Positions 12,001-49,173 of a DNA stretch of 64,000 bases are shown piece by piece. The notes under the pieces were generated by a model, which saw nothing but the letters and a program-made list of their open reading frames with translations, was not told where the DNA came from and did no database searches. Location of the stretch: NCBI GenBank assembly GCA_029834535.1, contig JAQMWT010000106.1:43529-107528 (forward strand). Reading direction: 5' to 3'. The translations under genes were made by a program, and so were the position numbers. Positions within the stretch are counted from its first letter, which is position 1, and each line of letters opens with the position of its first letter. The stretch is from Chrysophaeum taylorii (taxonomy: Eukaryota > Sar > Pelagophyceae > Pelagomonadales > Pelagomonadaceae).

Positions 12001-12238
12001 CGGCGCGTGCCCAGGCGCAATACGTCCGCGGGTCCGCGCCGCCGGCAGCCACATCGTCGCAAAGCACGTTGCTCGAGCCATCAAAAAGAAGCGCGCCGCT
12101 CGAGTCGCCGAGACGATCCGTCGTTGGGGTAGCACCTTGGACCACGCAGTTCTGGCCGCTGCCGGTGTAGTCGACGGCCGCGCCGTCCTCGAATGGAAAG
12201 TACGCGACCATTCCCAGCCCGTCGAGATCGTAGCAAAA
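1..12238 (-). repeat. Tandem array of twelve ~1,020-bp LamG-plus-linker units
   Basis: Units recur every 1,017-1,020 bp. A landmark in the LamG part falls at 609, 1628, 2645, 3665, 4684, 5704, 6724, 7743, 8763, 9783, 10803 and 11820. Each unit encodes a roughly 230-residue domain starting FCYDLDGLGMVAYFPFEDGA and ending near REIDELYKL, then a Pro/Ser/Thr linker of about 105 residues. The fold call (LamG / concanavalin A-like, Laminin_G_3 type) rests on the YFPFEDG start, the DWHFLCVSYDG strand and the GAIDDVMVFDQAL end. 1,020 bp is exactly 340 codons, so unit gain or loss keeps the frame. Units differ at only a few positions. The rightmost unit (11,541-12,238) has the most distinct linker. 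Confidence 0.9.
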
Positions 12239-15200: not shown

Positions 15201-15274
15201 CGCCGGACGCCCACCCACGCCACCAGCACGCCCACGGCGGCGGCGGCGGCGGCGACCACCAAGCGGCGCCGCAT
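1..15274 (-). CDS. Giant membrane-anchored PT-linker/LamG repeat surface protein (3' end outside window, frame broken)
   Basis: Probable cell-surface or extracellular adhesin-like protein. The ATG at 15,274 is preferred over an in-frame upstream GTG at 15,313. Seen in order: a basic start (MRRR) and one hydrophobic segment (about residues 5-22), which suggests a type II signal anchor; a roughly 200-residue domain (about 15,118-14,510); a long P(S/T)xxP(S/T) linker; a second copy of that domain (about 13,500-12,875); another linker; then repeated LamG-like domains from 12,238 leftwards. The paired domains share the TRDDAYI and VGGTL motifs and resemble choice-of-anchor A, a tentative assignment. 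The frame is open from 15,274 to about 7,352. Small indels near 7,352, 4,147, 2,419, 2,256 and 1,270 shift it, but the reading resumes each time in another frame, so this is one gene with recent indels or sequence errors. A thirteenth LamG unit begins at base 1, so the gene continues off the left edge. Ligand and exact role are unknown. Confidence 0.8.
14335..14470 (-). repeat. 12-bp minisatellite coding GPTGGPT/GPTAGPS linker
   Basis: A run of near-perfect 12-bp units (for example ccctcccgtcgg) lies inside the first linker of the surface-protein gene. On the minus strand it encodes GPTGGPTGG-type tetrapeptides. This is the most homogeneous part of the linker and a likely site of slippage. 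Confidence 0.8.
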
Positions 15275-15962
15275 AGTGGTGTTGTAAGTGATTGTCACTG
15301 CTGCTTTTTCCACGCCAGACCCTCGCTCGTGGCCGCAGGGGTCGGGGGCTTTCGAGTTGCACGATCCTCTACTACAACTTGTGTAGAACCTATGCTGCAG
15401 TAAATGGCATTTTCGGAAGGCTTCCAGGAACGAGACAACAACACGAACTTCTTTCTCTATCTAAGCCGTACATATCTTGTGGCAAACACCCATGTCTAAC
15501 GACCGGCTAACGTCATCAAACGTCGTCGGAACCGGCTGTCGTCGTTTTGCTCTTGGTGTTGTGATTTGATTCGATATCGATCGATCGTACCGGGAACGTT
15601 CCATCGCCTTCGGCTCCTGAACTTTGCCATCTTCACCGAGTCGCCGCGGCACAACTTCCGACGCCAAGGCGTCGGTCGTCTTCCCCCGCGGGCTGGACTT
15701 GTTGATTGGTTCTTGCTATTTTTTCCGAAGATCGCCTTCGTCCACGCAATTTCGCCAGAAACAAAGAGCTGACAACACCTCCTCCTCGCCGCCTTGCGTA
15801 TCTTCTTCATCTTCTTCTTGAGAATACGTCGTAATTCTGGCCTCCGGGCGGCGACGCCTTGTTCCCGAACGGGTCGTCTCACTACAGCAAAATTTTTCTG
15901 ACTGGAAACCGGCCCCCGACTACTCCTCCTCAGCGTGAGGGGGCCCTGCTTCTCGATCGACG
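15275..15962. other. Gene-free interval upstream of the surface-protein gene
   Basis: It holds the presumed promoter and 5' UTR of the minus-strand gene. Short ORFs on both strands here are Arg/Ser-rich, overlap each other and resemble nothing I know. I see no repeat, RNA gene or clear promoter motif. Confidence 0.5.
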
Positions 15963-18970: not shown

Positions 18971-20524
18971 ATGCCGAATCCACAAGGACAAAGCACGCTG
19001 TCAACGGTCCCACGGTCAACATACTCGCAGGCACTCACCGCACCTGCAGGTATCAGCTCAGATTCACAAGGCATTCCCGCCTTATTCAATATCTCTCGAT
19101 CAGCAGCTCCCGATCACTTCAAAGCTGGTTCCGCCTCGCCGCCTCCCCTCCTCGAAGACAGGCGCGCACTGCCGCTCACCGGCGCTTGCTGCTGCACCCA
19201 CCATCCACCTTCTCGGTTGGATGCACTGAATGACAATGCTCAGCAGGATGCATGGACCCATCTGCGACCACCGTGTAACGATTTGATGGTTATCTTCGCA
19301 CGAGCACCAGTCGCAACACATGATCACCCGCTCCTCAACTCTCAGTCAGAGGACGCACTCCTTTTGACTGCCGATCCTTATGTCTCACCGCGACCAAGCC
19401 GCTGGAAACCTTTCCCCATGGCTGCAGCAACAGACACCGATTTAGAGAGTTCTGAACGACCCGATCAGCCGCAAACTATGCACGATTCCATTGCGACCAC
19501 TTCGGTCCTGTGTGTCCCCTTGCATAGCTCTCTTCTGGACGCCACACGCTTGCGCTGCCTCCGGAAAATCGACGTTGCGCTCTCAGGAAACATTCTCCGC
19601 GCACTATGCACAGACTCGCTTCAACTGAACCACTTCTGTAAGCATTTTCGCATCACTGGAATGCACGACAAACGTTCCACGCCAGCTGCCGGCTCCACCA
19701 CAAACATGCACCCAAGTCACGTACGTTGCCTCCCTCAAAAGCGTCTTATCGCTCAGCACGTCACTCCTCATTTGAGGGCGCATGTCACATGCCCGCACCT
19801 TCGAATGCTCTACACGCATAAGGGCAACCCTGGTCACTCCGGCACTCACCGCTCTGGTCCCAGCTTCTCCGCTATTGAGGACGCACCCAGCAGGACTGAC
19901 CCTTACATCGCCCTTGGTTCAACTGCACTCTCCTTCGGCGACCCCTCTTTTCGAATTCCCGCACTGGACCCCAAGCATTTCAAGCCGGATACTCTCCACC
20001 ACGGGACCTCAGCTCACGCGCCCATCTGCCCTGCCTTGCAGACAGGTCAGCCTCGAGCCACACTCCTTTTGGCACTGACTTCGGACCACCCGCATCACGC
20101 GCTTTTGCTCTTGGAGCATGACACGCTTTTTGATGCTCTCCGCGTCACCGCCTCTAACACCACGACACTCGTCATTTCCACCGACACTCCGCGCCACAAC
20201 GTATCTCACGACCTTCAGATCACCAACATAAGTCGCTCGCGCCCGCACCACGTCGCGCACGCCTTACGAGGGCGTATTTCGATTGGTCTCCTCACAGGTC
20301 TTTCGATGCATTTTCCGACGTCCGACTTTGAACTTACGAGATACTTTATGGCAATCCCCAATGCCAAGACGTCTGAAGCTGCGCAATCATGTCTCTGGAA
20401 CTCCAAAGCAACAGAAACTGCCAGACAAGAAACTCTCAACAGCTGCTCAACAGCTACCAATAATCTCGCACATAGCAGCGAGTACTATCTCGCAGTCTCT
20501 ATTGGACGACAAGACGAAAGATAA
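18971..20524 (+). pseudogene. LARD copy 1 first internal frame, carboxyl part
   Basis: 517 codons, homologous to 39,594-41,192 in copy 2 and to the frame that in copy 2 begins at the gag ATG (37,692). A TAA at 18,797-18,799 separates it from its upstream part, where copy 2 reads TAT. The product is rich in Ser, Thr, Pro and His with scattered Cys. No domain is recognised. The upstream part includes a heptad-like Ala-rich helix (about 17,858-18,080) that may form a coiled coil. Probably the inactive structural (gag-like) frame of the element. Confidence 0.45.
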
Positions 20525-21309
20525 GACCACAACGGCCAGCTACACCAGCCAGCTCATTGTTGTAGCAGACGAGACAACGCAAACCAACTGCACAGCACGG
20601 TTCCAGACTATGCCGACGATGCTCAGGTCCAACACTCAATTACTCGACCACGCAAACGTTCTGTCACCTGACCTTGCACTGCAACTGGCTCCTGTCTCAT
20701 TCATAGCTGATGCACCCCATCCGATGGACCAATCCTTAAGATATGTCCCGCTCGCAGAAGCACCACCACAGGACACAAAGGTAAATCATGAGGACACAGG
20801 TAAGCGCACCACGATCATGCGCACAACCTCATTGCGCCTATCCGATCACGACGAAACGAAGCTACAGCTTTGCTTGTTCCCTTCGCCTCTGGAAGACAAA
20901 GGCCGCCTTTCAGCCTCCCAGGCACCTGACCCGTCCCTGTCGCTGCAATCCGCATCAGCACAAACGATATCACCTCCCAGCACGACTGCAAATCAGGCAC
21001 AAGCCAATGTCAGCACTCTGCAGAGTTATGCGCACCCGCTGGAATCTAACCAGCACGGCTACCTCAACCAGTCAGGTCACTGCACCACCTCGGTCTCCCC
21101 TGACACCAAGTCGACGTATCGCTCATTCGCGACCACCTCAAGTCATCTAATGGACGACTATGATCTCGAGCATGAACTCATTGCAACGCTTGAGTCATAC
21201 CCAAGAAGGAATCCTACTTTGTAGTCACCTCAGCCACTCCCACAGGAACTTTGGCCACCAGACGCCACCCATGTGATCGTGGTTTCTCCATTGGCTTCCT
21301 CCAAAGCAT

Positions 21310-23880
21310 TTGACTGCCTTCAGAGATAAAATGAACCCTCCCCATGCGACTATAGCCGCATTCTCGTTTGCGACACAAGCATTTACTTCATGTCAGTTGT
21401 TTACGCCCATAGTACCGCGACACACGGCAACCAAGATAGAAGTGGGCTGCGTTCCACCCTCATCTCTGAGCGCCACCCCCGACATGCTGCTCCCGGCACT
21501 ACTAGCCAGTCCCATCACGTCTGAATCGGCCCCCATCGCTTTGTATGACGTCATATGTCATATTCCGATTAAAGCCCAGACACCGCACAGGCTACAATGC
21601 ACTCGCGACGGCATGCTCACCGCCCCTCTCGGTTTAGACTACAAACATTGCCCCATACCCATGGTACACCCACAGTCAACTGAGACGCACGCTCGCTTGT
21701 CGCACAGTACGATGCCCAAACACCTTTTGATTCATGATACGCAGAACACTGTCGTCTCAGCCACCGCTGAAGCGCCTCCTCCGACCGCCGCCCGGCTCTG
21801 CGCTCGTTACGCAATCATGGTCTCTCGGTCTCACCGGCAATTCGAAGATTTCACCCAGTTCGAATTACGAGGGCGCATTAGTCTCCCACCGACGACAAGA
21901 TTCGTTTCGATTCGTATCAGTCATGCCTCCTATGGCTACTCTGGCTACATCGGAACACAATTCAAGGCACGTACCGAAGTCCCTCTTTCTAAGGACCTCT
22001 GTCACACGCCAAGACCTGATGAGTATTCGTCGCTCCTCCCCGCTTCAACGCGACTCCCGACGACCAAATCCCCGACGATTTGTGATGACACTAAGCTCCG
22101 TCATCAATGCAACTCAGAGCCTCCCACGCTCTTCCGTCAATCTGTTGCAGGTCACACCTATCACGCTTCAGCTCGCTCGATTTTATCCAGCATGCTGCTA
22201 TATGCAAACGAAGTTCAGTTACGTCAACGCCACACTTCGCAGTTATCGCCAGTCTCGCGCAATAAATGCCCGCCACCAAATGATAGCCGCACGCAGAGTC
22301 CTTTGCTCACCTCTTTTCACGTCCCTCCCAGCACTATGCTTGACGTTGAAGCTCTGCGCCACTATGGTTCGGTTACAACACAACTTCACGCGAAAATCCT
22401 CGTCCAGTTCTGATCATATTTCGCATCTGTCGACATTGCTATCGGAATCATGCTTCGGACACAACTCAGACTGCACTAGCGTACTACGCTCCTATGACGC
22501 ACTCGGTTCGCTCCTCTCCGTTCGCACTGCAAGTTCCATCTTGCCGAACTCTGAGCCCCACAGCCGCCATTGCGATTCGCACCCAGCCGACGCTTTCCGT
22601 AGCACCCGCGAGGATAACCCCCAATCTCCACAGGTTGGACACGCGCTCTGCTCTAAACATTCCACCGAATCTCACTGCCGCACACCGCTAGCCCCACCCA
22701 GTTGTGTTACAATCAAGGGAAGTTAACTGCCATGACTATTTACTTCTTCATTCCCACACACTCGCTGCTAGCCACAGTCTCGCATGACTCGCTGCCGGAC
22801 AGTTATCGCATTATGGACAGGACCTCGCATCATGTCCATTCTTCGGACATTCCCCGTCTACAGATCAATCCTCTCTTGAAACATACGGTCCCTACACTTA
22901 CACGTTGTATACTGTACAGCTCTCGCATATCGACAATATCCTTCTGTCGAATGTCTCCCCTTTCAGTCACTGCACGATTCACCAGGGATGCACCACGCTC
23001 CCTCGCGCTTGTACATCAAGGGAAGTTTGATTCTGGTGAAAACGCTTCGTTTGATTCTGATGTCAACGACTTCGGACATGAAATGAATAGATCAGTCGAT
23101 TGTCACAGTTTAGGATTACTTTGCAACACAGAACACGAAAGATGCGACTTTGACCATACCTTCGAAGTCAACTCCCCCCCTGGCACGGACACTATCTTCA
23201 AGCAGTCCATCGCCTTCAGGCATTCTCTTCTGTTGTCCAATTCTTCTACATTTTCTGCACGGGGTACCGACTCGTCAGCACAGGACACACGCCCGTATCC
23301 ACCATCATACGCGATACACTCGCAAACCTCAGTCTCCGCCCAATCATCTTTCGATGATAGCCACTGGCGACTTTCACGAGACTACGAACCCAAACCGATA
23401 GCAAATTTGGAGTTTTCATATTTATGGCCAACCCCAGACAACTTTATAACAATATCGCCATCGCACTACGATTACACCCATATCTTTTTACACGCTCATA
23501 ACCTAGCTTCAGCTGTCCCACGCTACACTCAGGACGACAGCTTTGACACGTATGTGACAGGCAATTCTGGTTCTCTCGTCTTCCATAAACAGCTCCGCCT
23601 TACTCGCTCTCATTACGACGATTTCCTTACCATGTCGAAACCGATTTGGTTAAATGGTCATATCTCTTCATGGGATCACGCTGGCGCTCCGTCACATCGT
23701 CAGATCTTTACTAGCAAAAATTTAGTCGCGATAGAATCACATCCCTACGACCACTTTCACTATTCGCCTTTCGATCAACCATTGGTCTGCTGCACGATTC
23801 CCGACTGCCTGACCCATGATCCCTCCTGTTATTATTCGTTAGACCACCCGCCCTACTCGGATGCTCCCCCAGCCACTTAG
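21310..23880 (+). pseudogene. LARD copy 1 second internal frame
   Basis: Two ORFs in one frame (21,310-22,413 and 22,702-23,880) correspond to 42,284-44,875 in copy 2, so the frame is shared by both copies although broken in each. The sequence is Ser/Thr/His/Pro-rich with no metal-binding, catalytic or membrane motif I can name. Without an outside homologue I cannot say whether it was ever translated; low stop density in C-rich DNA could explain part of its length. Confidence 0.35.
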
Positions 23881-26468: not shown

Positions 26469-26639
26469 CTTGTACCCCCCTATCCTAGGGTTAGCTCTAT
26501 TACCCTTAGCACATTTAATTCAGAAAAACGCTGTGTTTTTCGCACCGTGCTGTCCTTGCTATTGGAGACAGATACGAGGGCAGACTACCACTGCTCTCAC
26601 TCTGCTGAAGGGTAACACAGTTGAAATTACTGTTCTCTA
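26469..26639 (+). repeat. 5' LTR of copia A
   Basis: Starts GTACCCCCCTATCCTAGGGT and ends AAATTACTGTTCTCTA. It matches 36,940-37,108. A degenerate primer site (GGTATTGGGCACCAGTCCCG) follows and resembles the LARD site at 37,478. Confidence 0.75.
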
Positions 26640-26799
26640 GGTATTGGGCACCAGTCCCGGTATCAACAGAGTCCCATGATTTCCAGAAGAGTTCCGCTCC
26701 CTGGCGTTCCTGAACCCAAACAAGACGCCAACCAATCGAGAACTCCAAAAGGAGATAAAAGACCAAGAAGCTCGCATAGAGGCAAAGCATACAAGGGAG

Positions 26800-28821
26800 A
26801 TGCAAGCACAAGCTCAAGTCATACAAGCACAAGCTCAAGCGCTAAAAGCACTCGAAGCACGACTCAATGCCATGCAGACACCACCGGCCGTTGCCGCAGC
26901 GGCTCCCCCCCCCACTCCAGCTCCACAAGACCCCAAGACCAAGTCAAACACCTTCACTGACCCCCCCAGCGCTGTCCTCAAGTCAATGGACTCCGCTCGA
27001 GTCATCCCCCAAATGCTCTCGTTTCGCGTTATGCAGTTGTTCGTCGAACATCTCATGCCTGAAACAGGCATATCGCAATACTTCTTACAAGGCTTCTACA
27101 CGTGGGAATCCGTCTTACAAGGATCTAATGATCTAGCTGACGCTCTCCTAAGCCACTTCACCAAGGAATATGACAAGGACCCCGATAACCACGCCACCAC
27201 CGGCAACACACAAGATTTCCAAGCCCGTTACGTCTTCAACAAGAGCGTCTATCGCAAGTTCGGCAAACGCTTCCTTGAGAACGTCTACGAGCCCAAGCTC
27301 CAAGAACTAAAAGACAGTGACAAGGACACGACCGATACGACGAAAGGAACGTTACAACCGATCACGCAACCTCACCTCCAAGGAAAAGAAGCCGATTTCA
27401 TCGTGTACCTCCGCGAGACAGTGCACCCCCTCTTTCGCCGTTTTCTGCATGCGAAGAAATTGATGCACTCGGATCCTCCCATCCGATAGGACTCGAATTT
27501 GTGTTCCAAGTCCGCCTCGCACTTGACAAGCACACGGGCCAGAACCACGTCCACCATGCGCATTGTGTATACAATGCCTTCCTGGACACGCCGTTCAACC
27601 CTGAGATCCACGAGCCCGCGCATTATATAGATTATATGCGCCACGTTCAACAACAGCTTCGTCAAATTACCGACGATGCCTCCATCCAACGTCCCGACGA
27701 CATGATCCTCAAAGAAATACACAAAATCTTACGGTTCAAGTACCCTCCAAGATAGCTTGACTCCCGCGCCCCAACGCACATCAAGGGGTTCGCCCGTCTT
27801 CCCAACTGCCTTCGTAATCCCAACGACTCACTGTTACTCGACGAAGACAAAGAAGCGACAAACCACCTTCCCAAGTTGATCGCCCGCATCACGGTTATCT
27901 CCACCTTCGAACGCAGCTTCTGGGCTCACCTCAAGCCCCATCCCACTCTGAACTTCAAGCCGTTGCGATTCGTCACTGGCTTTGGTCGTCTACCGACCAA
28001 GGACTAAGATAATCCACGTTTTCACTCCCGCCGTCATGGCCTCCACCTCACCGAAGATGATGCCGACACCTCGCCCTCTGAAGATGAAATCCCCCCAGAT
28101 CCTGATGAAGCATCCCCAGAAGATAACGACTCCGTCGCTGTCTTTCTCACGGAAGCCAACCTCGATAAAGATGACGACACCGATCTCATCCTACACCTAC
28201 ACGCTTACCGAAAGAAACAGATGTCCCGCCATCAGAAGAAGACACCTCCGAAAAAGTCGCCAAATCCTCGCCCCCCGTCGTACTACGATATCAATGACAG
28301 CCCTAAGCCAAAGGCCACCCCTGTCACCCCAACAAAGAACAAACACCCCCCCCTGTGCTTCTCCTGTCACCCCAGACAGACGCGAGCACCCGCACCTCCG
28401 CAAGGTCACTTTTCCCACTCAAACCCATCCACCAAAGCCATCCACTCCTGACCAACGGTTCAAGGTCCCCCTCCGTGATGTTCGTCGCAAGCTCCAGATC
28501 ATCCGGAACCTTAGTCAAGCCGGTCGCCAACACACATCCAACTCAGAGCGCATGACCAAGCTCGTCAACCCCATCACCACTATTTCCGATGAGATACTTC
28601 TCTCCGAGGCTGATTCCGACGCCGCCGAGTTTCTTCAGGTGCTATCATCCGATCCCCAGGATGATCCACCCGATGAGGGCGCAGCCGACGACGTAGATGA
28701 CCAAGGCCACCTCGGTTTCTATGATGATCACGGACAGCTACGCCTCTACGACGAAAACATCCCCGAAATAGATGATGAAGACGACTCCGCTGAAGACTAC
28801 GCACAACGCCACAGCAACTAA
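26800..28821 (+). pseudogene. Copia A gag region (broken)
   Basis: The first ORF (26,800-27,489, 229 codons) begins in a Gln/Ala-rich coiled coil (the same frame is open back to about 26,680), passes a Pro/Ala stretch (PAVAAAAPPPTPAPQDP) and continues into a helical gag-like body (ISQYFLQGFYTWESVLQGSN). After a TAG the reading continues in other frames at 27,501-27,755 and 27,982-28,821, with acidic, Lys- and Pro-rich tails. Position just after the LTR and leader, the coiled coil and the match of the Pro/Ala stretch to LARD gag (38.0 kb) support gag. No complete CCHC knuckle is seen. Broken by at least three stops or shifts. Confidence 0.55.
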
Positions 28822-28972
28822 ATGCGTGCTCTACACCAGAGTCGACTTTTTCGATGATGCTTGCCGACGACACCTGTGCCGCCAACCAAAAACTACTAAA
28901 TCATGCACCACGCCTCATGATGAAGAACTTCCCGACATCATCTGAACTCTCTCCCAGTGTCGCAGACTTCAT

Positions 28973-29386
28973 TTGTGCCACTTACACTACAGGAAAGAAC
29001 CCACAAAGACCAACTCGCTGCACGGATGCAACGGACCCGGCACTGGAATTTCTCTAATTGACGGTGGCGCATTATTCTGCTTCACTCGCACAATCCAACA
29101 TTTTGTTCCCGGGTCCATACGCAGGATTCCCGAACATACCATTCGCACGGGCAGAGGCACCTTAACCAGCCGCTTCATCGGTGTCAAACCGTTGTATTTG
29201 CAGGCTGCAGGTCTCTCCTCAAAGGATATCAAAGACTCCACAGGTTACGTCTTATACCTCGTCTTTCTGGTCGTCCCGCAATTCAGACCAGGTCTACAGG
29301 TTATAGCGACCTCTCAACTGAAAGCTCTAAACGTTAAAGCAACAGATCCGCCGCTGCCTACGAACCATTCTTGTATGAACTTCTGA
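28973..29386 (+). pseudogene. Copia A aspartic protease remnant
   Basis: An ORF of 137 codons contains GTGISLIDGGALFCF, matching the D-(S/T)-G-A active-site pattern of retroviral-type proteases with Gly at the second position. It follows gag and precedes the methyltransferase, as expected for a pol amino end. The reading is lost after about 29,386. Confidence 0.5.
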
Positions 29387-29646
29387 CCACCTCAACTTCA
29401 GATCCCCACGATTACAAAACACTTATAGCCACAACCGCCGTAGTTCTCGCCAATCGCCAAACTAATGGTCTCTTGTCCCTGCCATCCCATCCAAAGCAAA
29501 CATTCCGCGCTGTGTTTAGTTCCACACCGGAACGAAAATGTCCTTCAAGGATGAGCTCGCAAACATAACGCAAAACGTCGCAAAGACGCGCTCGCAATCC
29601 CATCTCCTCGATTTCGCCAAAAAAATTACAGCATCATTCTATATTC

Positions 29647-31730
29647 TTGACGGAATTAATGAGCCTGCCGCGTAGTGTCGTCCAATATGCATTCACTGGC
29701 TCGGCGGACCTCTCTGTGCAAGCACAACCCCCTCCGCTACACACCGCCATTATTGCAGGTGGACTCCACCAAGAAGGCTTTAACTCTTTTCGCAAACGCG
29801 TCGACAAACGCATCACTGTCGTGGCCACATGTGAAATCAACCCTATTGTACGCGCCCGCGCGCAGCAACTTTTTCCCGCACGCTCAGCATTATGCGGATC
29901 TAAGAAAGCTCACTGCCGCTCTGCAAACCGGCAAAAATACGACTACCTCAACTTGACCTGGCTGTCTTCACCTTGCCTTGTCAACACCTGAGTGTAATGA
30001 AAGACTGTGACGGCTATGCCACTCCGGTGACCGCCGACCTTTTCGTCAAAGAACAAATCCGCTTTGTTCGTTGCACGCTCCCGACATACACCACTGTCGA
30101 GAATGTACCCCCAAACCCCCGAACTCACCACGAGTACACTCAGCTCGCCAAATGCTATCAGCGCACGGGTTACTTCAGACACTCCGCCGTCTACAATGCC
30201 TCCGTTTTTGGTGACGTCATACGCAATAACCGCTACCTCGCGCTACCTCGCTCTCTTTGCCAGATATCCGCTCACCGGCTACAACCTCGAGAAAACCGCT
30301 TCTCCCAGGATAGTATCTCCTCCGAGCATGGTTCCCCTCCTGGACCCAAGTCACACTATCCCCGACGACCTCTGGATAGCAAACCCCGCCCTTCGTGGCA
30401 CAGTGACCCCCTCCACGTTGGACTACTGCCAGAACAAAGCACATTCTCGTACGCACCCGCCAACGCAGCTCAACTCTCGATTTCCGAGAATGCACGCATC
30501 TGCCAAATGCTCGCACGCTCGAAGAAGCCCTTCACGGATCTAGGACTCGACGCCGACGGCACCCCCTATGCCTCGATGACCAAAATCTCCCATCTCTTGG
30601 CATTCACATTGCTGCACAATCATTTGTCGCAACACCCTACTCTCACAGCATGGAACACACTCCGCTGCTTTCACGCCTCAGAGTCCCAATGTGCTTACCA
30701 TTTAGATGGAGCCATCACCGGCACTGCCGCTGCCGCCGTCGCATGTGGCTACTTCCCGCGCGTTTCCCTCCCCTTGCATTCACGGCCCCCTAAGGTATTG
30801 GGCTGTTCACGCCAACACGCAATCTTCTCCCCAACTAACTAACTAACTTCAGACCTCTCCCGAGCATGGGAGCCAGGCCGGACCGACAGGAGCCAGTCCG
30901 GAATCACGGGCCTGTAGACGAGGAGCGCCGAAAGGTCGCGCCGAAAGGTCGGTCGGCGGAGAGTGACCATCAAGCTTATCGCCATGCGACGAGGAGACCG
31001 CGATGTGACTGACAACCAACTCGTCGATAACCTTCCGTCTTCGCCCCCCGGCCATACCCCGTCCCACTGCGAACGTTCCGGCTGCCAACCGGCCCGCCCG
31101 GGAGGCGAATAGGTGCCAACCTACGCCGGGAGGGCGGATGCCCTCGCAAGGCTCAGGATTCATGAGGCACCGTCCTCCATCGCAACCGCAGTCGGCGATC
31201 AGGGTAAGGGCTTCTCCCCAACGCACACATTATCCCTGGATGTTCCCAAGGGCACCGCCTTTCTGGTCGTCGCCTATACCAACTCCTTGGCAGCCGTTCA
31301 CAGCTGCTCGCGCTCCTCCACGTGGGTCCACTATATGAATCGCCCGCACCCCGGCTTTGCCGCGATCGATTCACGAAGGAGAATTACTCTCGATGACCCC
31401 ACGGGACTCATAATGTCCGAAGCACGTCCCACCTACGCGGACTATGTTGGCCACATCGGCGACACGCTCCAGAAAAGCACCAAGTGCTACTCGGTCACTG
31501 GCTCGTACCCAACCAACACGAGCTACTCCAACGCACTACTGCTGATCTCTCCCGACCACATCCGATACGCGACTCTCAACGAAATCGCAAAGTTTGGACA
31601 ACACTCGGACCATGAACTGCTCCGCCTGTTCCAACAGCATCCGCCGTACTTCGCGTTCAAGGCACTGGCCAACGCCGTCCCGCACAACATGCTGCAGGCT
31701 AAGTACAGCGCTGTCCTCGCACTCCACGAA
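29647..31730 (+). pseudogene. C5 cytosine DNA methyltransferase inside copia A (broken)
   Basis: Would transfer a methyl group from S-adenosylmethionine to cytosine C5 in DNA. Motifs in family order: I, AGGLHQEGF (about 29,755-29,780); II, CEINP with the SAM-binding acidic residue (29,830-29,844); IV, LPCQ with the catalytic Cys codon at 29,979; VI, VENV (30,096-30,107); VIII, GDVIRNNRYLAL (about 30,210-30,245); IX, a LNEIAKFGQHSD segment (about 31,576-31,610); X, ANAVPHNML (about 31,666-31,693). The target-recognition region between VIII and IX is long and contains a 375-bp inserted element (30,836-31,210) whose removal rejoins the same frame. Another shift lies near 29,878 (between II and IV) and one near 30,245. 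The gene sits between protease and integrase and shares their decay. No PWWP, BAH or other regulatory domain is visible. Family membership is well supported; activity is not expected. Confidence 0.75.
30836..31210. mobile_element. 375-bp non-autonomous element in the methyltransferase, with 12-bp direct repeats
   Basis: Flanked by CTTCTCCCCAAC at 30,824-30,835 and 31,211-31,222, which reads as a target-site duplication. It starts TAACTAACTTCAGACCTCTC and contains the GCATGGGAGCCAGGCCGG block shared with 33.5-34.06, 46.75-47.13 and 55.58-55.86 kb. No transposase. A 9-12 bp duplication suggests a Mutator-like family, by inference. Confidence 0.75.
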
Positions 31731-32249
31731 TCGCATCACCACGTGAACCTTCACATCGAATGGGCAACCATACGCAATGGCATTCCCAGCCCCGGAGACA
31801 TCAACCAGGTTGCAGAATTCTTCTTGAACATCTCCAGCCGTCTCTTTGCAGAGGAGGACCTCAACTTCACCTCCCTCTTCAATGTCGTTGCAGATGCTCA
31901 CCATGCTGCGATCCACAAGCCAAGCAAATCGAAAAACCTCGAGACGCTACTCGCCGAGGCCACAGTTGCTAAAGTCCGAGTCGACAAGCGACACACCCCT
32001 CCTCGGACTTCGACTGCCGCTCTGCCCCCCTTGCACAAGCCCGGCACCACTCAGCACGCAAAAAGAGTGCTTTTGGTCACTCGCTGGCACCGCATCCACC
32101 ACCAACAACCCGAGGTTCTTCGCCGCACGATTGCCGCTAATGTAACGAATCTCCGCCCAGGTGATGATCGGTATCTGCAAGACAGCAGCGAATGCAAGCG
32201 CTGTCAACCGCATGTTAGCTTCAGACATAAGAACTCTTCCTGGTCACAG

Positions 32250-32746
32250 GATGAACTGGCCTACGCCCCTGACCAACATCTCCACATGCATGTGTCCTAC
32301 CCGAGCATCAGCAAGTGCTATGGTGGATTCCGATACATCATGCACTTCGTGTGTGTTGTTTCGGCACACAAATGGGTATACTTCCTGAGGACGTGCTGGC
32401 TGGCATCCTCTACGTGGTCAACGTGATTAAGGTCGAATTCGATGTAAGTGTGAAAATCATCTCATCTGATGCTTTTTCCACATTCCGCTCCGAAGCTTTC
32501 CACCCGCTCAAGGTACAACTCGGTATCCAGTTTCAAGTCAGTGGCCGCCACCTACACCAGCGGAACTTCGCGGAAAACTTCATTAAGGAAAACACACGAG
32601 GCACTGTAGTCCGCCTCCTTGACCTTCGCAGCGTCCGCATCGAAGGAAGCCTACTGGCGCCGAGTATTACCACCCATTTGGTCTACTGCACAAGATCCAA
32701 GCAGACAACCAGCGCTCTCATGGACTGCCCTCGCGCAATGACGTGA
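32250..32746 (+). pseudogene. Copia A integrase remnant
   Basis: Two overlapping frames read an rve-type integrase: YGGFRYIMHFVCVVSAHKWVYFL (frame of 31,113-32,426), then SSDAFSTFRSEAFHPL and QRNFAENFIKENTRG (32,315-32,746). The first catalytic Asp position reads LHMH instead of LHMD, and FVDD reads FVCV. The second Asp (SSDAF) and the Glu (AENF) remain. So at least one catalytic residue is lost in addition to the frameshift. An SSECKRC piece upstream may be a remnant of the zinc-binding amino domain. Confidence 0.65.
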
Positions 32747-33494
32747 CCTGCGCCGTTCCCCGGCGCATCATGTCACCCACGGCACCGCTCCCGAAGCTCC
32801 TCCCCTTTGGCGAACCTGTCACCTTTGTCTATCCTTAAAGTCGCAAACTGGAACCCCCCAGCGTCTCCGCCTCCTAACTCGCAAGCAACAATTACGTCCC
32901 GAACCTCCCCGGCACGGACCGATTTATCCGTGATGTTCACAGCTCTCTATTCTGCTTGTACATCAAGGGCGATATGGAAAATCGCCACATCGCACGACTT
33001 CCACGTTGATGCAGACATGCCAGTCAACCGCAACAAGGAGATCGAGCGGATCAAAGTACACGCACAGATCCCAGCAGAGGCACGGCAAGAGGACCCGCTC
33101 CCAGCTGTAAGCAAGCAGCCAATGCCAGAAATTAGACAGGAATCGCAAAATTAGGGCGAGACTCATGATAACGACCAGGATGATAAACCCGATGATGACG
33201 ACGAGCATAAAGAATCAGTTCCGACCTCTTCTGCTAATCCAAGTCCCGTCAGCGACGAGACACCTGAACAGGATTTTTCGTTCCTCAACCGACCACCTCC
33301 GCCGGACGGTAGCATTCCGATGTCCAAGCGAAAGGGTCGCCTAGAGGTTGCTCTCGATGATTCAGGTTTTACTCCAGTCCTCGTGCATCGCAACCAGAGT
33401 GATAAACTCAATGCAGATCTCAAGGACGAGCGCGGATTCCGCATTCCTAAAGATCAACTCTATATCGTGAAACGTGTCGACGATGGACAACTTT

Positions 33495-34060
33495 TCCCAT
33501 CTAACTAACGAACTTACTTCAGACCCCTCCCGAGCATGGGAGCCAGGCCGGACCGGCAGGAGCCGGCACGGAATCACAGAGGAAAATCACGCAGCTGGGG
33601 CAGAGGCGAGGGACGAGGATGGACTTGTTGATGGTGGATCGCCACTGCGCGCGGTCTTGTGCGAGGTCGTGCGAAAGCGTCGCAGGCCGCGGACGTGTTG
33701 GTCCACGAACAATCGACCTGTCCGTCGCGTTCTGCCCAACCGAGCGAACCCCATCCCAGCGCGGACTTTCCGGGTGCTAACCGGCCAGCCCGGGAGGCGA
33801 GCAGGCACCGTCTCACTCCGGGACGGCCGGGGCCGCCGCAGGGAGCAAGCGTGTTAGGCGCCGTCCTCCATCGCAACCAACGGTTAGCGATCGCACAAGA
33901 CCGCGCGCAGTGGCGGTCCACCATCAACAAGTCCGTCCTCGTCCCTCGCCTCTGCCCCAACTGCGTGATTTTCCTATGTGATTCCGTACCGGCTCCTGCC
34001 GGTCCGGCCGGCTCCCATGCTCGTGAGAGGTCTGAAGTTAGTTAGTTCGTTAGATGGGAA
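33495..34060. mobile_element. Foldback element with ~165-bp inverted arms
   Basis: The left arm (about 33,498-33,665) is repeated in reverse at about 33,885-34,056. Both arms run from CCATCTAAC through ACTTCAGACC, GAGCATGGGAGCC, AGGAAAATCACGCAG and CAGAGGCGAGGGACGAGGA to CACTGCGCGCGGTCTTGTGC, with few mismatches. About 220 bp lies between. The arms belong to the same family as 30,836-31,210 and 46,745-47,132. It sits inside copia A between integrase and RT. A possible CTTTTC duplication flanks it, too short to be sure. Confidence 0.8.
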
Positions 34061-34117
34061 GCTTTTCACCAGGCGCATCATCGCATCCGAGTATGTTCGC
34101 AATTGGAAATACCAGCA

Positions 34118-34242
34118 GGAGCAACCCACGGCTCGCGCCACAGCAGATGCTGGCGGCATGGCCCTGGTGCAGAGCGCTGACACTGATGAGAAACATCAAT
34201 GTGCGGGACATGTTGGCTGTGGCGCGAGCCGTGGGTTGCTCC
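34118..34242. mobile_element. 125-bp element with perfect 27-bp terminal inverted repeats
   Basis: Starts GGAGCAACCCACGGCTCGCG and ends with the exact 27-bp reverse complement (34,216-34,242). The interior carries CACTGATGAGAAACATCAAT. A partial inverted copy lies at 34,473-34,567. No coding capacity. No convincing target duplication. Confidence 0.8.
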
Positions 34243-34472
34243 AGGCAGCACTACCACTGCCATCATTCTCTACCAGAGGCACAGTGATTTTTACTGTTCT
34301 CTAGGTAAGGACCCAGTCAGGTACTGGTAGAGAAACGTCCTCCGAAAGACATCGATCTCGATCGACATCTCGGACAAAGGATCAGGATTTCCAGAAAAGA
34401 GCAATCTCCTGAAGTTCCTGAAAGTTTTAAGACCGTAGTCAAGTTTCATCGCTTGCTACTGGCCATGCCGAA
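34243..34472 (+). mobile_element. LARD LTR-end and leader fragment
   Basis: Matches the end of the LARD LTR (GGCACAGTGATTTTTACTGT), a decayed primer site and the leader GACATCGATCTCGATCGACA, ending before the gag start. It is bounded on both sides by inverted copies of the 125-bp element. Confidence 0.75.
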
Positions 34473-34567
34473 GCAACCCACGGCTCGCGCCACAGCCAAC
34501 ATGTCCCGCACATTGATGTTTCTCATCAGTGTCAGCGCTCTGCACCAGGGCCATGCCGCCAGCATCG
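34473..34567. mobile_element. Partial inverted copy of the 125-bp element
   Basis: Begins GCAACCCACGGCTCGCGCCA and matches the reverse complement of 34,118-34,242 as far as GCCGCCAGCAT, then stops; the far terminal repeat is missing. Confidence 0.75.
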
Positions 34568-34639
34568 CATCTGATCTCAACATTAGACGGGACGCTAAGC
34601 CGCCAGATGATGTTCCGACATGATGCCTCCTCGCAAATA

Positions 34640-36170
34640 CCACTCAAGATTATGGTATCAAGGGCGGCACTGCACTGGATCTGCAGAGAGAAACCGACGC
34701 AGAACTCTTGTACGTTGATTTCCCAAGGAAGCCGTACCACTCATCTGTCTTGGTCGACCACCTGGACAACGACAATTCTGTTCTCGAGAACTATGTATGC
34801 CATGACGAACTGTCACCGGCAGAGTACTATGCGCGTCAATGGAACCAAGAATTCTGTTGTATGAGCTCCTCTCTCTTATGGGACATCTCAGCGCATCAGC
34901 ACTACCACTTAGCTTCTCGTCACAGACACGCCTTCATGCATGATTCTGGCGAACTCGGACACTTCTTTCTAAGTCAGAGTCATCCGAATCAAGACACTCT
35001 CCAATAAGTCATGGACTATGACTTACAGCACATTGACCATGTCGTGTTACAACTCGTGACTGCTGAAGACATTGTCTATGAGCCCGAAAAGATTGTCGAA
35101 CTCAAAGGACTCAGCGAAGAAGATAAGCTTAAGCATATTGCTTCGATTCGCAAGGAAACTGAAGGCTCGAGCTCTAACGGCGTCTTTAAGCTCGAACCTT
35201 TACCGCCAGACCGTTCGTCTATCTCGACGAAACTCGTGCTGAAGATCAAGTCTTTCTCTGACGGCAACCCAGACCGCTATAAAGCCCGTCTAGTTGCCCG
35301 AGGTTTCTTGGCACGTGTCGGCATTGACTTTTGTGCCACATCTTCACCGACCGCGATGCTCGCCACCAACCGGGTTCTGCTCGCCATCGCTGTGAAGCAC
35401 CGGCTCCCGGTCGCGCATGCAGACATCCCCCAGGCATTCATCCAATCGGCACTCGATCGCCCGGTATGGATAGACTTACCTCGAGGGATTCGTGTTTCGC
35501 AAAACCTTATCCAGCAGATACAGAAGAACCACCCAGAGTCCAAGCTACTCTCCGACTCGTCAAGGCTCTCTATGGTCTCAAACAGTCAGCTTTGTTATGG
35601 AACATGAAGCTCGACTCGTTCCTTCAACATGAGTTCGAACGCTCACAAGTCGACACTTGCCTCTATATCAGTTGGGGTCGATCTATCAACAGATGGGCTC
35701 GCCTATCCGTCTCTGTCGATGATCTATTGATCACTGGTACCAACACCGCCAAAATCACGTCTCTTCGCACCGCTTTGGAGAAGGGATATGGCAAAGGTAC
35801 GTGGCATGATAACACTCGCCCCTTTCTTTGTATCGATGTACACTACAACGTCTCCGCTGGTCATCTCACTATGAATGTAGCCTCGAAGATAAACAAGATG
35901 CCCGCCGAGCATAAAATCAACGTCCGTACTACTGACGTCCCCTACTCGGACATTCTCACTCAAAACCCTTCTGCTAAGCTTCTTTCCGACTTGGCTCCTA
36001 CCTTAGAAATTTTACACAAGCATTTTCCCCATTACTGTGGCACTAGTATTTTTTTGTCTGTAACTTGTCGTCCAGACATCACAACTCTGTGCAACAATGC
36101 TGCAGAGGCATGCACAATCCTGAGCAGACCCATCTTCTCCACTCGTATGTTTTACTTCGCTATTTGAAGG
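34640..36170 (+). pseudogene. Copia A reverse transcriptase (broken)
   Basis: Three frames in succession: 34,640-35,607 (one TAA at 35,005), 35,331-36,167 and 36,065 on. They read a copia-type RT: PDRYKARLVARGFLARVGID, VAHADIPQAFIQ with the first catalytic Asp, PVWIDLPRGI, LVKALYGLKQSALLWN, and LSVSVDDLLITG with the VDD active site. The catalytic residues therefore survive while frameshifts near 35,500 and 36,140 and the internal stop do not allow one protein. Family RVT_2 is certain; activity is unlikely. Confidence 0.85.
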
Positions 36171-36868
36171 GCACTCCGAATGATTCTCTCGACTATTCAT
36201 CCGACAGCTCCTCTATTACGCCCTTTATTCAGCATCTGATCAGCACATATCCCGAACTGCATCATCTTCGTTCGCCCATTATTTGTTTTACTGATGCAAG
36301 TTTCGCTGACCGTTCTGACCCTCGCTTAAGATCTCATTCTGGTGTAAGTATTTTCGTATTTGGCAATCTCGTATTCTGGTCTAGCAAACGCCAAACTCTT
36401 ACTGCCAAAAACACCATGGAAGCCGAACTCATCGCCGCTAGCGCAGCCGCTGATGAATGTCAATGGTTTCATAAGATCTTTTCCTCTCACCCTTATCTGT
36501 TTTCACATGATCAAGCTCACGCTATTCCCCTGCTTATTGACAACGCTAGCGCCCTACATGTCGCTAATCATCCTAAAGTCAGTGCTCCCTCTCGTCATAT
36601 CAATTTATGAGAATTTCACATTCGCGACTACCAGGCCAGCTCGGTCATTAGTCCTCTATGGTGTCCCACTCACTACCGGATGGCTGATCATTTTTCAAAG
36701 CTCCTCCCCCGCACTTTATTCCACAAGTTCAAGAACGCCTACGGTTTTCACTCAACATCTTCTTCACCACCATCTCATCAAGTTGCTCTTTCTGCAACCC
36801 TTCCACCGTGCAACTCCGCCCAGAACACGCTCTACATTCTTGTCGATGGAAAATCGCTTCCCGCTTAG
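36065..36868 (+). pseudogene. Copia A RNase H
   Basis: Reads CFTDASFADRSDP, SSKRQTLTAKNTMEAELIAA, LLIDNASALHVANHPK and SAPSRHINL, the copia RNase H order with D, E and D active residues present. A TGA at 36,608 falls where HIDIR-type sequence should continue. The same frame then goes on as EFHIRDYQ and MADHFSKLLPRTLFHKF, the usual copia carboxyl end. One stop codon is the only visible break in this domain. Confidence 0.8.
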
Positions 36869-36939
36869 TTTGATCCAGATTCGCTCAACGAGTTCAATCT
36901 GTGAGGGCGTAGAAAATACAAATGTCGATTTAGGGTTAG

Positions 36940-37108
36940 TACCCACCTATCCTAGGGTTAGCTCTCTCACCTTTAGCACATTTCAATTAAGAAAAACGCT
37001 GTGTTATTCACACCGTGCTGTCCTCGTTATTGGAGACAGATACGAGGGCAGACTACCACTGCTCTCACTCTGCTGAAGGGTAACACAGTTGAAATTACTG
37101 TTCTCTAC
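36940..37108 (+). repeat. 3' LTR of copia A
   Basis: GTACCCACCTATCCTAGGGT to AAATTACTGTTCTCTA, matching the 5' LTR. Preceded by CAATCTGTGAGGGCGTAG and TTTAGGGTTA, the same pre-LTR block as LARD copies 1 and 2. Confidence 0.8.
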
Positions 37109-40600: not shown

Positions 40601-42437
40601 CTCAGGAGATATTCTCCGCGCACAATGCACAGACTCGCTACACCCGAACCGCTTCTGTCAGCATTATCGCAGAACTGGAATGTACTACAAATGTCCCACG
40701 CCAGCTGCCGGCTCCAGCACAAACATGCACCAAAGTCACGCACGTTGCCTTCCTCGAAAGCGTCTTATCGCTCGGCACGTAACTCTTCATTCGAGGACGC
40801 ATGTCACATGCCCGCACCTTCGAATGCACTACACGCCTATGGGCAACGTGGGTAACCCTGATCACTACGGCACTCACTGCTCTGGTCCCCGCATCTCCGC
40901 CATTGAGGATGCACCCAGCATGACTGACCCTTCCATCGCCCTAGGTTCTACTGGACTCTCCTTCGGCAATCCCCCTTTTCGAATTCCCGCACTGGACCCC
41001 GAGCATTCGAGGCCGGATACTCTCCACCACGGGATCTCAGCTCACGCGCCCATCTGCCCTACCTTGCAGACAGGTCAGCCGCGAGCCACACCCCTATTGG
41101 CACTGACTTCGGACCTCCCGCATCACGCGCTTTTGCTCTTGGAGCATGACACGCTTCTCGATGCTCTCCGCGTCACCGCCTTCAACACCTAGACACTCGT
41201 CATTTCCACCGACTCTCTGCGCCGCCACGTATCTCACGACCTTCAGATCACCAACATAAGTCACACGCGCCCGCACCACGTCGCGCACGCCTTACGAGGG
41301 CGTATTTCAATTGGTGACCTCACAGGTCTTTCGATGCATTTTCCGACGTCCGACTTTGAACTTACGAGTCACTTTATGGCAATCCCCACTGACAAGACGT
41401 CTGAACCTGCGCAATCATGTCTCTGGAACTCCAAAGCCACAGAAACTGCCAGACAAGAAAGCACTCAGCTCTCCACAGCTGCTCAACAGCTACTTATAGT
41501 CTCGCACATAGCAACGACTACTATCTCGCAGTCTCTCTTGGACGACAAGACGAAAGATAAGACCACAACGGCCAGCTACACCAGCCAGCCCATTGATGTA
41601 GCAGACGAGACAATGCAAACCAACTGCAGAGCACGGTTCCAGAATATGCAGACGATGCCCTGGTCCAACGCTCAGTTGCTCGACCACGCACACGTTCTGT
41701 CACCCGACCTTGCACTGCTACTGGCTCCTGTCTCATTCATAGCTTATGCACCCCATCCGATGGATCAGTCCTTAAGATATGTCCCGCTCGCAGAAGCACC
41801 ACTGTTGGACACACAGGTACATCATGAAGATACAGGTAAGCGCACCACGATCACGCGCATCAGCTCATTGCGCCTATATGATCACCAAGAGATGAAGCTA
41901 CAGCTTTGATTGTTCCCTTCGCCTCTGAACGACAAAGGCCGCCTTCCAGCCTCCCAGGCACCTGACCCGTCCCTGTCGCTGCAATCCGCATTAGCACAGA
42001 CGATCTCGCCTCCCTGCACGACCGCAGATCAGGCACAGGCCAATGTCAGCATTCACCAGAGTTATGCGCACCCGCTGGAATCTTACCAGCACGGCTTCCT
42101 CAGCCAGTCAGGTCACTGCACCACCTCGGTCTCCCCTGGCACCAGGTCAACGTATCGCTCATTCGCGATCACAAGTCATCTATTGGACGACGATGATCTC
42201 GAGTATGGAACCATCGCAACGCTGGAGTCATACCCAAGAAGGAATCCTACTTTGGAGTCACCTCAGCCTCTCCCACAAGAACTTTGGCCACCAGACGCCG
42301 CTCGTGGTTTCTCCATTGGCTTCCTCCAGAGCTTTTTGACTGCAGCAGAGACAAAATGCAACCTTCCCATGCGACTATACCCGCATTCTCGTTTGGGACA
42401 CAAGCATTTACTTCATGTCCGATGTTTACGCTCATAG
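37692..42437 (+). pseudogene. LARD copy 2 gag-like long frame
   Basis: One reading frame starting at ATG 37,692 (MATHDTTVPSLDYAKQF) runs to 42,437, broken by stops at 38,619, 39,390, about 39,501, 41,190 and 41,907. The MATHD start is shared with the minus copy at 46,395, supporting this start. Features: Pro/Thr-rich region (AAATPTPTPAPRN), a twice-repeated TYGHDGPGT motif, and an Ala-rich heptad helix (about 38,820-39,065). Then a Ser/His/Pro-rich tail; its longest open part is 39,594-41,192, 532 codons. Probably a structural protein that assembles with a helper element's proteins; no domain is recognised. Confidence 0.5.
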
Positions 42438-44875
42438 TACCGCCACACACGACAACCAAGATAGAAGTGGACTGCGTTCCACCCTCATCTCTGAGCGCTA
42501 CCCCCGACATGCTGCTCCCGGCACTACTAGCCAGTCCCATTACGTCTGATTCAGCTCCCATCGCTTTTTATGACGTCATACGTCACATTCCGATTACAGC
42601 CCAGACACTGCACAGGCTCCTATGCACTCGCAACGGCACGCTCACCGCCCCTCTCGGTTTAGACTACGAACATTGCGCCATCCCCATGGTGCACTCACAG
42701 TCAACTGAGATGCACGCTCGCTTGTCGCACAGTACGATGCCCGAACACCTTTCGGTTCAAGATAAGCAGAACACTGTCGTCTCAGCCACCGCTGACGCGC
42801 CCTCTCAGACCGCCGCCCGGCTCCGCGCTCGTTGCACAACCACGGTCTCTCCGCCTCACCGGCAATTCGAAGATTTCACCCAGTTCGAATTACGAGGGCG
42901 CATTAGTCTCCCACCGACGACAAGAATCGTTTCGATTCGTATCAGTCATGCCTCCTATGGCTACTCTGGCTACATCGGAACACAATTCAAGGCACGTACC
43001 GAAGTCCCTCTTTCTAAGGATCTCTGTCACACGCCAAGACCTGATGAGTATTCGTCGCTCCTCCCCGCTTCAACGCGACTCCCGACGACCAAATCCCCGA
43101 CGATTTGTGATGACACTAAGCTCCGTCATCAATGCAATTCAAACCCCCCACGCTCTTCCGTCAGTCTCTCGCAGGTCACACCTCTCAAGTTTCAGCTCGC
43201 TCGATTTTATCCTGCATGCTGCCATATGCGAACGAAATACTGTCACGCCAAAGCCACACGTCGCAGTTATCGCCAGTCTCGCGCAATAAATGCCGCCACT
43301 ACATGAGAGCCGCTCGCAGAGTCCTTTGCTCACCTTTCTTAACGTCCCTCCCAGCACTATGCTTGACGTTGAAGCTCTGCGCCATTATGGTTCGGTTACA
43401 ACACAACTTCACGCGAAAATCCTCGTCCAGTTCTGATCATATTTCGCATCTGTCGACATTGTTATCAGAATCATGCTTCGGACACAACTCGGACTGCACT
43501 AGCGTTTTACGCTCCTATGACGCACTCGGTTCGCTCCTCTCCGTTCACACTGCAGGTTCCATCTTGCAGAACTCCGAGCCCAACAGCCGCCATTGCGATT
43601 CGCACCCAGTCGACACTTTCGGTAGCACCCGCGAGGATAAACCCCAATCCACAGGTTGGACACGCGCTCTGCCCTCAGCATTCCACCGAATCTCACTACC
43701 GCGTACCGCTAGTCCCACCCAGTTGTGTTACGAATCAAGGGAAGTTAACTGCCATGCCTATCCACTTCTTCATTCCCACACACTCGCTGAAAGTCACAGT
43801 ATCGCATGACTCATTGCCGGACAGTTCTCGCATTATGGACAGGACCTCGCATCATGTTCATTCTTCGGACATCCCCCGTCCACAGATCAATCCTCTCTTG
43901 AAACATACGCTCCCTTCACGTTGTATACTGTACAGCTCTCGCATATCGACAACACCCTCCTGTCGAATGTCTCATCTTTCAGTCACTGCACGATTCACCA
44001 GGGATGCACCACGCTCCCTCGCGCTTGTACATCAAGGGAAGCTCGATTCTGGTGAAAACGACTCCGGACATGAAATGAACACTGGATCATTCGATTGTCA
44101 CGACTCAGAATTACTTTGCCGAATAGAACACGAAAGATGCGACTACGACAATACCTTCATAGTCAACTCTTCCCCAGGCAAGGACAATAACTTCGAACAG
44201 TCCATCGCCTTCAGGCATTTTCTTCTGTTGCCCAACTCTTCGGCATTTTCTGCACAGGGCACCGACTCTTCTGCACAGGACACACGCCTGTATCCACCAT
44301 CATACGCGATACACTTGCAAACCTCAGTCCCAGCCCAACCATCTTTCGATGATAACCAGTGGCGACTTCCACCAGACCACAACTTCAAGTCCACAGCAAA
44401 TTTAGAGTTTTCATATTTATGGCCACCCCCAGACAACTTTATCCCAATATCCTCATCGCGCTACGATTATCCGCATATTATTTTAGACGCGCATAGTTTA
44501 GCTTCAGCTGTCCCACGCTACACTTAGGACGACAGCTTCGACACGTATGTGACAGGTAATTCTGGTTCTCTCATCTTCCAGGAACAGCCCCGCCTTACTC
44601 GCTATCATTACGACGATTACCTTACCATGTCGAAACCGATTTGGTTCAATGGTCATATCTCTTCATGGGATAACGCTGCCGCTCAGTCACATCGTCACAC
44701 CTTTACTAGCCCAACTTTAGTCACAATAGAATCTCATCCCTACGGCCACTCTCACTATTCGCCTTTCGATCAATCATTGGTCTGCTGCACAATTCCCGAC
44801 TGCCTGACCCATGATCCCTACTGTTGTAATCAGCTAGACTACCTGTTCTACTACGAGGATCCCCCAGTCATTTAG
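42284..44875 (+). pseudogene. LARD copy 2 second long frame
   Basis: ORFs at 42,284-43,306, 43,517-44,527 and 44,549-44,875 lie in one frame and match 21,310-23,880 of copy 1. The breaks fall at different places in the two copies, which would suit a frame that was once open, though C-rich, stop-poor DNA could also give this. No known domain; Ser/Thr/His-rich. Confidence 0.35.
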
Positions 44876-48956: not shown

Positions 48957-49173
48957 CCAAGTTGACCAAGAGAGCTGTATTCTTTAGCGATGGCTTGCAA
49001 CCAACCAGGACGCTCAGGATTGGTCGGAGCTAAAGCTTCACGTAAATGGGTGGAAGTGATAGTTTCGTCAAGGTCTGAATACTGGGACATTTCTTCGGAA
49101 GCAGAGTAATAAACGTGTGCATGAGGATCAACAAGGGTGCTAGCTAAACAAAGGGGAAGGAAGACATAATGAA

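Follow-up and report, generated by a model that had tools for sequence, protein, structure and literature searches.

It is a paradox that a retroelement should encode the very enzyme by which such elements are normally silenced, and three element classes are known to do so (PMC5890265). The available text of that report (de Mendoza et al., 2018) describes DNMT-bearing LINE and DIRS elements in Symbiodinium and a DNMT-bearing Gypsy element in Klebsormidium; SymbioDIRS-Dnmt3 and SymbioLINE-Dnmt are present in hundreds of copies, KnitGypsy-Dnmt3 of Klebsormidium nitens is intronless, and the Copia elements of Symbiodinium are stated to carry no DNMT. Two of the DIRS enzymes methylate CG when placed in yeast; for their LINE and Gypsy counterparts no activity was detected there, an outcome that the authors termed inconclusive (PMC5890265). 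A 2025 article refers to DNMT3 in ‘LTR Copia and DIRS families’ and credits the 2018 paper; in the part available, its Copia mention concerns streptophytes and dinoflagellates, not ochrophytes, and the 2018 text that it cites says Gypsy (PMC12344493; PMC5890265). A survey of DNMTs in microeukaryotes mentions none in a copia element in its accessible sections (PMC9998398), and in the literature searched, which covered few subscription journals, no title reports a copia-borne C5-cytosine methyltransferase (C5-MTase) in an ochrophyte. Among stramenopiles, the DNA transposon Sola1-1_Ec32 of Ectocarpus likewise bears a DNA methyltransferase, in the form of a ParB-MTase accessory gene, and may mark its own DNA, according to the excerpt at hand (PMC12477816).

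The element analyzed here, called family A, shares with KnitGypsy-Dnmt3 its status as an LTR retrotransposon, the location of a C5-MTase inside Pol, a multicopy state and purifying selection, and it shares with SymbioDIRS-Dnmt3 and SymbioLINE-Dnmt a retroelement-encoded cytosine methyltransferase under purifying selection, as far as these are described in the text available (PMC5890265). It differs in its vehicle, which is Ty1/copia rather than Gypsy, DIRS or LINE, in its ochrophyte rather than charophyte host, in the position of the MTase between protease and integrase, and perhaps in the type of the enzyme: the KnitGypsy enzyme is of DNMT3 type (PMC5890265), and the family A MTase appears nearer to prokaryote-type enzymes than to the host DNMT2 or DNMT5, in a small reference set that had no DNMT3 and where DNMT5 was unlisted. 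A first-pass annotation of this DNA had referred to the Symbiodinium and Klebsormidium cases and proposed another such capture. The proposal is supported, with two amendments: the cases in the literature concern LINE, DIRS and Gypsy elements, so that copia is a different vehicle, and the phenomenon extends beyond one family to two further groups, B and C. Retroelement-borne MTases as such were already known; what appears to be new is Ty1/copia as the vehicle, its occurrence in an ochrophyte, and the divergent groups B and C. The addition to the known paradox is a Ty1/copia element whose MTase differs from the DNMTs identified in the host, in divergent families and at some 300 scored places of a 71-Mb genome.

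The host and the copy in the window

The window is the whole 64,000-nucleotide stretch that was analyzed, and it lies in contig C106 of the 70.8-Mb, 697-contig assembly that was searched. NCBI taxonomy places Chrysophaeum taylorii in the Ochrophyta, Pelagophyceae, and the stramenopile host that had been guessed from the letters alone is borne out by the RuBisCO large subunit, whose closest solved structure is 7yk5, which we take to be a diatom RuBisCO. The host has its own cytosine methyltransferase genes: a DNMT2 that matches 1g55 (3.9e-39), and a DNMT5-like gene that matches 7r76 (E 3e-143, listed as Rad8), presumably the Cryptococcus DNMT5. The main text of the genome paper for strain NIES-1699, as far as word-start searches reach, is without transposon, retro, reverse transcriptase or DNMT (PMC10366177).

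The Ty1/copia retrotransposon at about 26472-37107 of the window is, as judged from its sequence, a dead copy, and its pol has the order protease, C5-cytosine methyltransferase, integrase and reverse transcriptase (RT). Motif positions were counted by hand on translations and by alignment to L009, a copy elsewhere in the genome with an open pol, and the parts are as follows.

26472..26639, plus strand: 5' LTR remnant, with its 5' end missing and a terminus ...TCTCTA as in the LTRs of other copies
26680..27755, plus strand: gag-region ORF pieces (26680-27489 and 27321-27755), open frames between LTR and protease
28991..29359, plus strand: protease region with LIDGGA at ~29054 (tblastn against L009 pol residues 59-181, 83% identity)
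29701..29935, plus strand: MTase motifs I-III (AGGLHQEGF at ~29755, CEINP), in ORF 29569-29991 (tblastn against L009 pol)
29904..30866, plus strand: MTase motifs IV-VIII (LPCQ at ~29973, VENV at ~30096, RNNRYLAL at ~30222) and the start of the target-recognition region (PF00145; tblastn)
30867..31145, no strand: insertion of ~280 bp splitting the MTase (gap between tblastn pieces)
31146..31725, plus strand: remaining part of the target-recognition region, with motifs IX and X of the MTase (LNEIAKFG at ~31570, ANAVPHNML at ~31665), in ORF 31113-32426 (tblastn against L009 pol 645-1058, 86% identity)
32211..32961, plus strand: integrase region, broken (tblastn against L009 pol ~1000-1254)
33494..34060, no strand: short nested element whose long terminal inverted repeats have arms of 119 nt and 51 nt (gap between tblastn pieces)
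34471..35972, plus strand: pre-RT linker and reverse transcriptase (RVT_2), split over two frames (RVT_2; tblastn)
36047..36610, plus strand: probable RNase H region (an ORF, placed by position and by eye, without Pfam support)
36939..37107, plus strand: 3' LTR (LTR-pair comparison)

The MTase segments that the first-pass annotation had read by eye are present in the translations in the place and order it gave, after the DGGA protease at ~29054 and before the integrase. The PF00145 search that it had proposed as a test returned a match in ORF 29904-30842 (8.4e-6, 25.9 bits against a Pfam cut-off of 22). Its view of the copy as dead, with relatives that may be intact, is also supported: frame changes, the ~280-bp insertion within the MTase and the second insertion at 33494-34060 break the window copy, and open polyproteins of 1952 aa (L009) and 1868 aa (L010) occur in the same genome. 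The gag-region pieces occupy the position equivalent to the 578-aa ORF1 of L009, and a Pfam search of them returned nothing above cut-off. A 75-nt repeat at 30833-30907, in a stretch (30833-31120) inside the MTase region, recurs at 33503-33577 in the nested inverted-repeat element.

Assignment to Ty1/copia, within LTRs as had been claimed, rests on the RVT_2 type of the RT (2.6e-18 and 9.6e-14 within 35008-36167 of the window, 1.6e-38 in L009 and 7.7e-42 in the group B locus L036), on an integrase upstream of the RT, and on short LTRs. In L009 a single frame contains LIDGGA at residue 80, the MTase motifs at 313-818, an rve match at 1016-1110 that is weak (E 0.0061, below the curated cut-off), and RVT_2 at 1686-1933. 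The integrase residues D1025, D1090 and E1125, which are D, D and E by our own assignment, are retained in 21/22, 21/21 and 20/21 rows of family A. LTR pairs of ~200 bp are 97.5% identical in L019 and 93.9% identical in L027, and the window remnants (26472-26639 against 36939-37107) are 94% identical (159/169); a 5-bp target duplication, GTATA, was read by eye in one of the two assessable copies (L019, with none in L027). The usual LTR termini are TG...CA; the LTRs of L019 and of other family A copies start with TAGAGA and end with TCTCTA.

Family A across the genome

Searches of the assembly yielded at least 57 matches to PF00145 (with 123 of 474 candidates scored) and at least 79 matches to a 645-aa open MTase ORF used as query (68 of 830 candidates scored). 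Merged, these matches amount to 96 places, two of which are host genes. With the window and five places found later, family A comprises about 100 places; this and the other family A counts are lower bounds because the candidates were scored only in part, and some of the places are probably duplicate contigs (C10/C297 and C25/C521).

Retention of the MTase was assessed in the first 89 of 126 integrase rows, those of ~240 aa or more. An MTase match was found upstream in 56 of these 89 rows and was not listed for the other 33, of which five were sampled; the upstream DNA of all five has MTase sequence, which is whole in L031, L032 and L034 and partial in L033 (from residue 335, L009 numbering) and L030 (from residue 429). 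Copies of the same family that lack the segment had been named as evidence against a captured MTase, and none was found among the 56 matched rows and the five sampled ones.

Selection was estimated as median dN/dS by the Nei-Gojobori method from stop-free stretches only, a choice that favours intact copies, after the duplicate loci L004 and L006 and eight saturated protease pairs were dropped. The catalytic part of the MTase gave 0.149 (18 copies, 153 pairs), the whole MTase 0.209 (9 copies) and the target-recognition region 0.265 (15 copies), so the latter evolves faster than the catalytic part. The corresponding values are 0.117 for protease (15 copies), 0.105 for integrase (10) and 0.131 for RT (6); within one set of eight copies, the catalytic part gave 0.149 and the integrase 0.111. 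The MTase of family A is thus found in frame with pol, in many copies and under purifying selection. Together with its presence in each family A copy that was tested, and in the matching slot of groups B and C, this indicates that pol has retained it for a long time.

Homology of the family A domain

The family A domain is almost certainly a C5-MTase domain within copia pol, between protease and integrase as the first-pass annotation had it. The PF00145 cut-off was exceeded by all nine open family A MTase domains tested, with the Pfam model covering only the N-terminal half of the domain, and NCBIfam dcm matched the same number (9/9) at E<=1, the best at 2.6e-8 and 33.9 bits, where the model cut-off of 100.65 is well above. 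The N-terminal part, represented by a profile of 19 rows from 17 distinct copies, was compared with a reference profile of 19 MTases (Dcm, 16 phage or bacterial enzymes, host DNMT2 and host DNMT5). The probability was 94.5, and the score of 58.0 lay above the maximum of 29.0 that was reached in 100 column shuffles. Motifs I, IV (PC), VI (ENV), VIII, IX and X are present in this order and are kept among copies; in rows that cover the site, broken copies included, the motif IV Cys is found in 29/29, the motif VI Glu in 28/29 and the motif X Asn in 26/29.

Spacings between motifs, in residues for A/B/Dcm/DNMT2, are 72/78/83/63 from I to IV, 41/42/48/42 from IV to VI, 44/43/50/39 from VI to VIII, 313/346/127/123 from VIII to IX and 35/34/35/40 from IX to X. 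The target-recognition region of A and B is therefore ~200 residues longer than that of Dcm and DNMT2, and outside VIII-IX the spacings of B resemble those of Dcm and A. The motif expressions used for spacing were written with the sequences already in view, and their count of 0 of 20000 shuffles therefore has little weight as a control. The expression for B was unmatched in A, Dcm and DNMT2, and that for A was applied to no other group.

Affinity within the C5-MTases was judged from the family A profile, which scores all 17 prokaryote-type references above host DNMT2, in a set without DNMT3 where 16 of the 17 are close relatives of one another and host DNMT5 was unlisted. Known relatives are distant. 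The ORF of locus L004 had no protein homologue at E<=0.001 among 7997 candidates scored and no match in the PDB, and the A1 profile had none at E<=0.1 among 7996 candidates scored from 5.8 billion proteins. The single PDB match to A1 was a cytosine-specific methyltransferase (8yf3, E 0.036), a PDB search with A2 returned C5a chains alone (E 0.69 and above), and none of 149 pattern matches in viral contigs was confirmed.

This distance from known MTases is what would be expected if the resemblance were due to chance or composition, and one might also suppose that an MTase had inserted separately into a single copia copy. Both suppositions are rejected for family A, and the probability left to them is negligible: PF00145 is matched by every open domain tested, the profile score stands above its shuffles, and the MTase lies in a continuous open frame with protease, integrase and RT and is present in all copies tested.

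Groups B and C

The first RT locus fetched for comparison (L029) begins with apparent motifs IX and X, and it led to two more copia groups, which very probably have an MTase of more divergent sequence at the position that it occupies in family A. Group C (L029, L035 and L037) has at least 144 matches (144 of 1028 candidates scored), and group B (L036) at least 74, with 69 scored places (69 of 1603 candidates scored). RTs of B and C are ~63% identical to one another and 33-37% identical to those of A. The ORFs of both groups contain, in order, CSG, (P/S)PCT, EM, QxRER, a motif IX-like segment and NA(L/I)P, followed by integrase and RT, and a protease-like DSCA segment was seen by eye upstream in L036. 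In L037 (1171-6000), the integrase-RT linker is duplicated internally (YNLLPNASLERIYNKVLSPQQ... is present twice).

PF00145 was matched by none of eight group B members, nor by L036 or L037. In an hhalign comparison, a combined B and C profile matched the Dcm/phage/DNMT2/DNMT5 reference with E 7e-4, a score reached in 0/100 and 0/60 shuffles, and C alone scored 27.9 against a shuffle maximum of 21.9. In PHROG, L036 and L037 each match one family only, the DNA methyltransferase phrog_116, at weak values (0.054 and 0.38). A plain hmmsearch with the reference profile gave B and C 0.6 bits, the protease part of A 1.5 and the MTase of A 21.4; the 0.6 bits slightly weaken the case for B and C as C5-MTases, which remains highly probable. 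The motif IV Cys and motif VI Glu are invariant in B (8/8), and in C they are found in 9/9 and 8/9, respectively.

Among 150 RVT_2 rows, 38 share one score (148.1 bits, E 9.4e-42, model positions 8-220), such as near-identical RTs would give, which suggests recent spread. Seven of these 38 have a group B MTase ~2.3-2.9 kb upstream on the same strand, as read by eye. A B/C-like MTase fragment with stops (L025:2-1006; tblastn 43% to L036) is found next to a group A copy, within one 10-kb stretch.

One capture or several

A direct comparison of profiles links A to B and C weakly: 3/100 shuffles were as high with the first profile, 0/60 with a deeper B+C profile and 14/60 with C alone. Homology between the target-recognition regions of A and B was considered and set aside as not significant (18/100 shuffles as high). 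Because A, B and C share an identical slot and a similar long layout, we infer that one old capture could account for all three. It can be proposed, tentatively and as a reading that we hold to be more doubtful than probable, that an ancestral copia captured a C5-MTase once, between protease and integrase and before the split of A from B/C, and that the MTase has since been a core pol enzyme of an entire clade of copia elements in pelagophytes, working inside the particle on cDNA of the element itself, while the enlarged target-recognition region determines its specificity. If this is true, self-marking would be an inherited step built into a lineage of retroelements.

The minus strand of the window also has a copia family that seems to be MTase-free (47790-52542 and 52865-54172; RT 88.5% identical between the two copies). 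The element at 47790-52542 leaves no room for an MTase, with 765 residues from the protease to the RT motif vs 1639 in L009, and its RT is 30% identical to that of A and 26% identical to that of B. Since A, B and C share their slot and MTase-free copia coexists in the same genome, the benefit of the MTase to the element becomes testable.

Possible function of the methyltransferase

The best explanation of the whole, which we regard as probable, is a copia element of the order protease, MTase, integrase and RT whose MTase is retained by selection and methylates the element's own cDNA. For its last part, that self-methylation of cDNA is the function under selection, we can claim only that it is quite possible. 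According to this proposal, the element's protease would free the MTase from the polyprotein, and the freed enzyme would enter the virus-like particle along with integrase and RT. There it would methylate cytosines of the element's cDNA, or of the RNA/cDNA hybrid, either ahead of integration or during it. Each new copy would thus arrive in the genome already bearing the marks of silent, host-like DNA, which host DNMT5 could go on to maintain.

Base composition was consulted for traces of methylation. The observed/expected ratio of CpG is 1.00-1.03 for family A, 0.93 for group B and 0.86-0.91 for group C; it is 1.08 for the MTase-free copia and 1.26-1.46 for three stretches of host genes. Family A thus does not show the CpG depletion that would point to self-methylation. 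Transitions at CG, CHG and CHH sites are 0.121, 0.085 and 0.102 in A, where CG is slightly raised, 0.114, 0.078 and 0.112 in B, and 0.311, 0.341 and 0.259 in C, where alignments are short and there is no clear CG excess. With CpG undepleted and CG transitions barely raised in family A, heavy inherited CG methylation of its copies is therefore not visible.

Undepleted CpG would also suit an MTase that acts on RNA in the manner of DNMT2, with either the genomic RNA of the element or the tRNA that primes it as substrate, where it might protect the template or aid priming. The particle of the polyprotein holds RNA, and DNMT2 shows that the fold is able to act on tRNA. We nevertheless think an RNA target unlikely: the VIII-IX region, which spans 313-346 aa in A and B compared with 123 in host DNMT2 and 127 in Dcm, is more in keeping with a domain that recognizes DNA, and the family A profile ranks host DNMT2 below all of the prokaryote-type references, closely related to one another as 16 of these 17 are.

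The MTase might instead modify host DNA in trans, by altering chromatin at target sites or by silencing competing elements or viruses. Such effects were suggested for Symbiodinium in the 2018 paper, in the part of it available (PMC5890265), and the high copy number found here, with some 300 scored MTase-bearing places in 71 Mb, would be in keeping with them. A trans effect would extend to MTase-free copies as well, and therefore by itself it explains neither retention in every family A copy tested nor the fixed position in pol; as the selected function we consider it improbable.

That catalysis is dispensable and the domain is kept for nucleic-acid binding or for folding of the polyprotein would fit the short motif I of A (AGG), the restriction of the Pfam match to the N-terminal half, and a motif VI that reads EM, not EN, in B and C. 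The near-complete conservation of the catalytic Cys of motif IV and Glu of motif VI, in A (29/29 and 28/29) as in B and C, argues against this, and we judge a purely structural role to be quite improbable. Methylation of the element's own cDNA is accordingly the function that we put forward, at the tentative level given above.

Other observations in the window

Two stretches on either side of the copia element, 20000-23389 and 41028-44384, lie ~21 kb apart, contain long ORFs and are 85-95% identical in matched blocks. The minus strand at 1147-15460 has long host-like ORFs in which near-identical modules are repeated, with PS..PT..P repeats between them.
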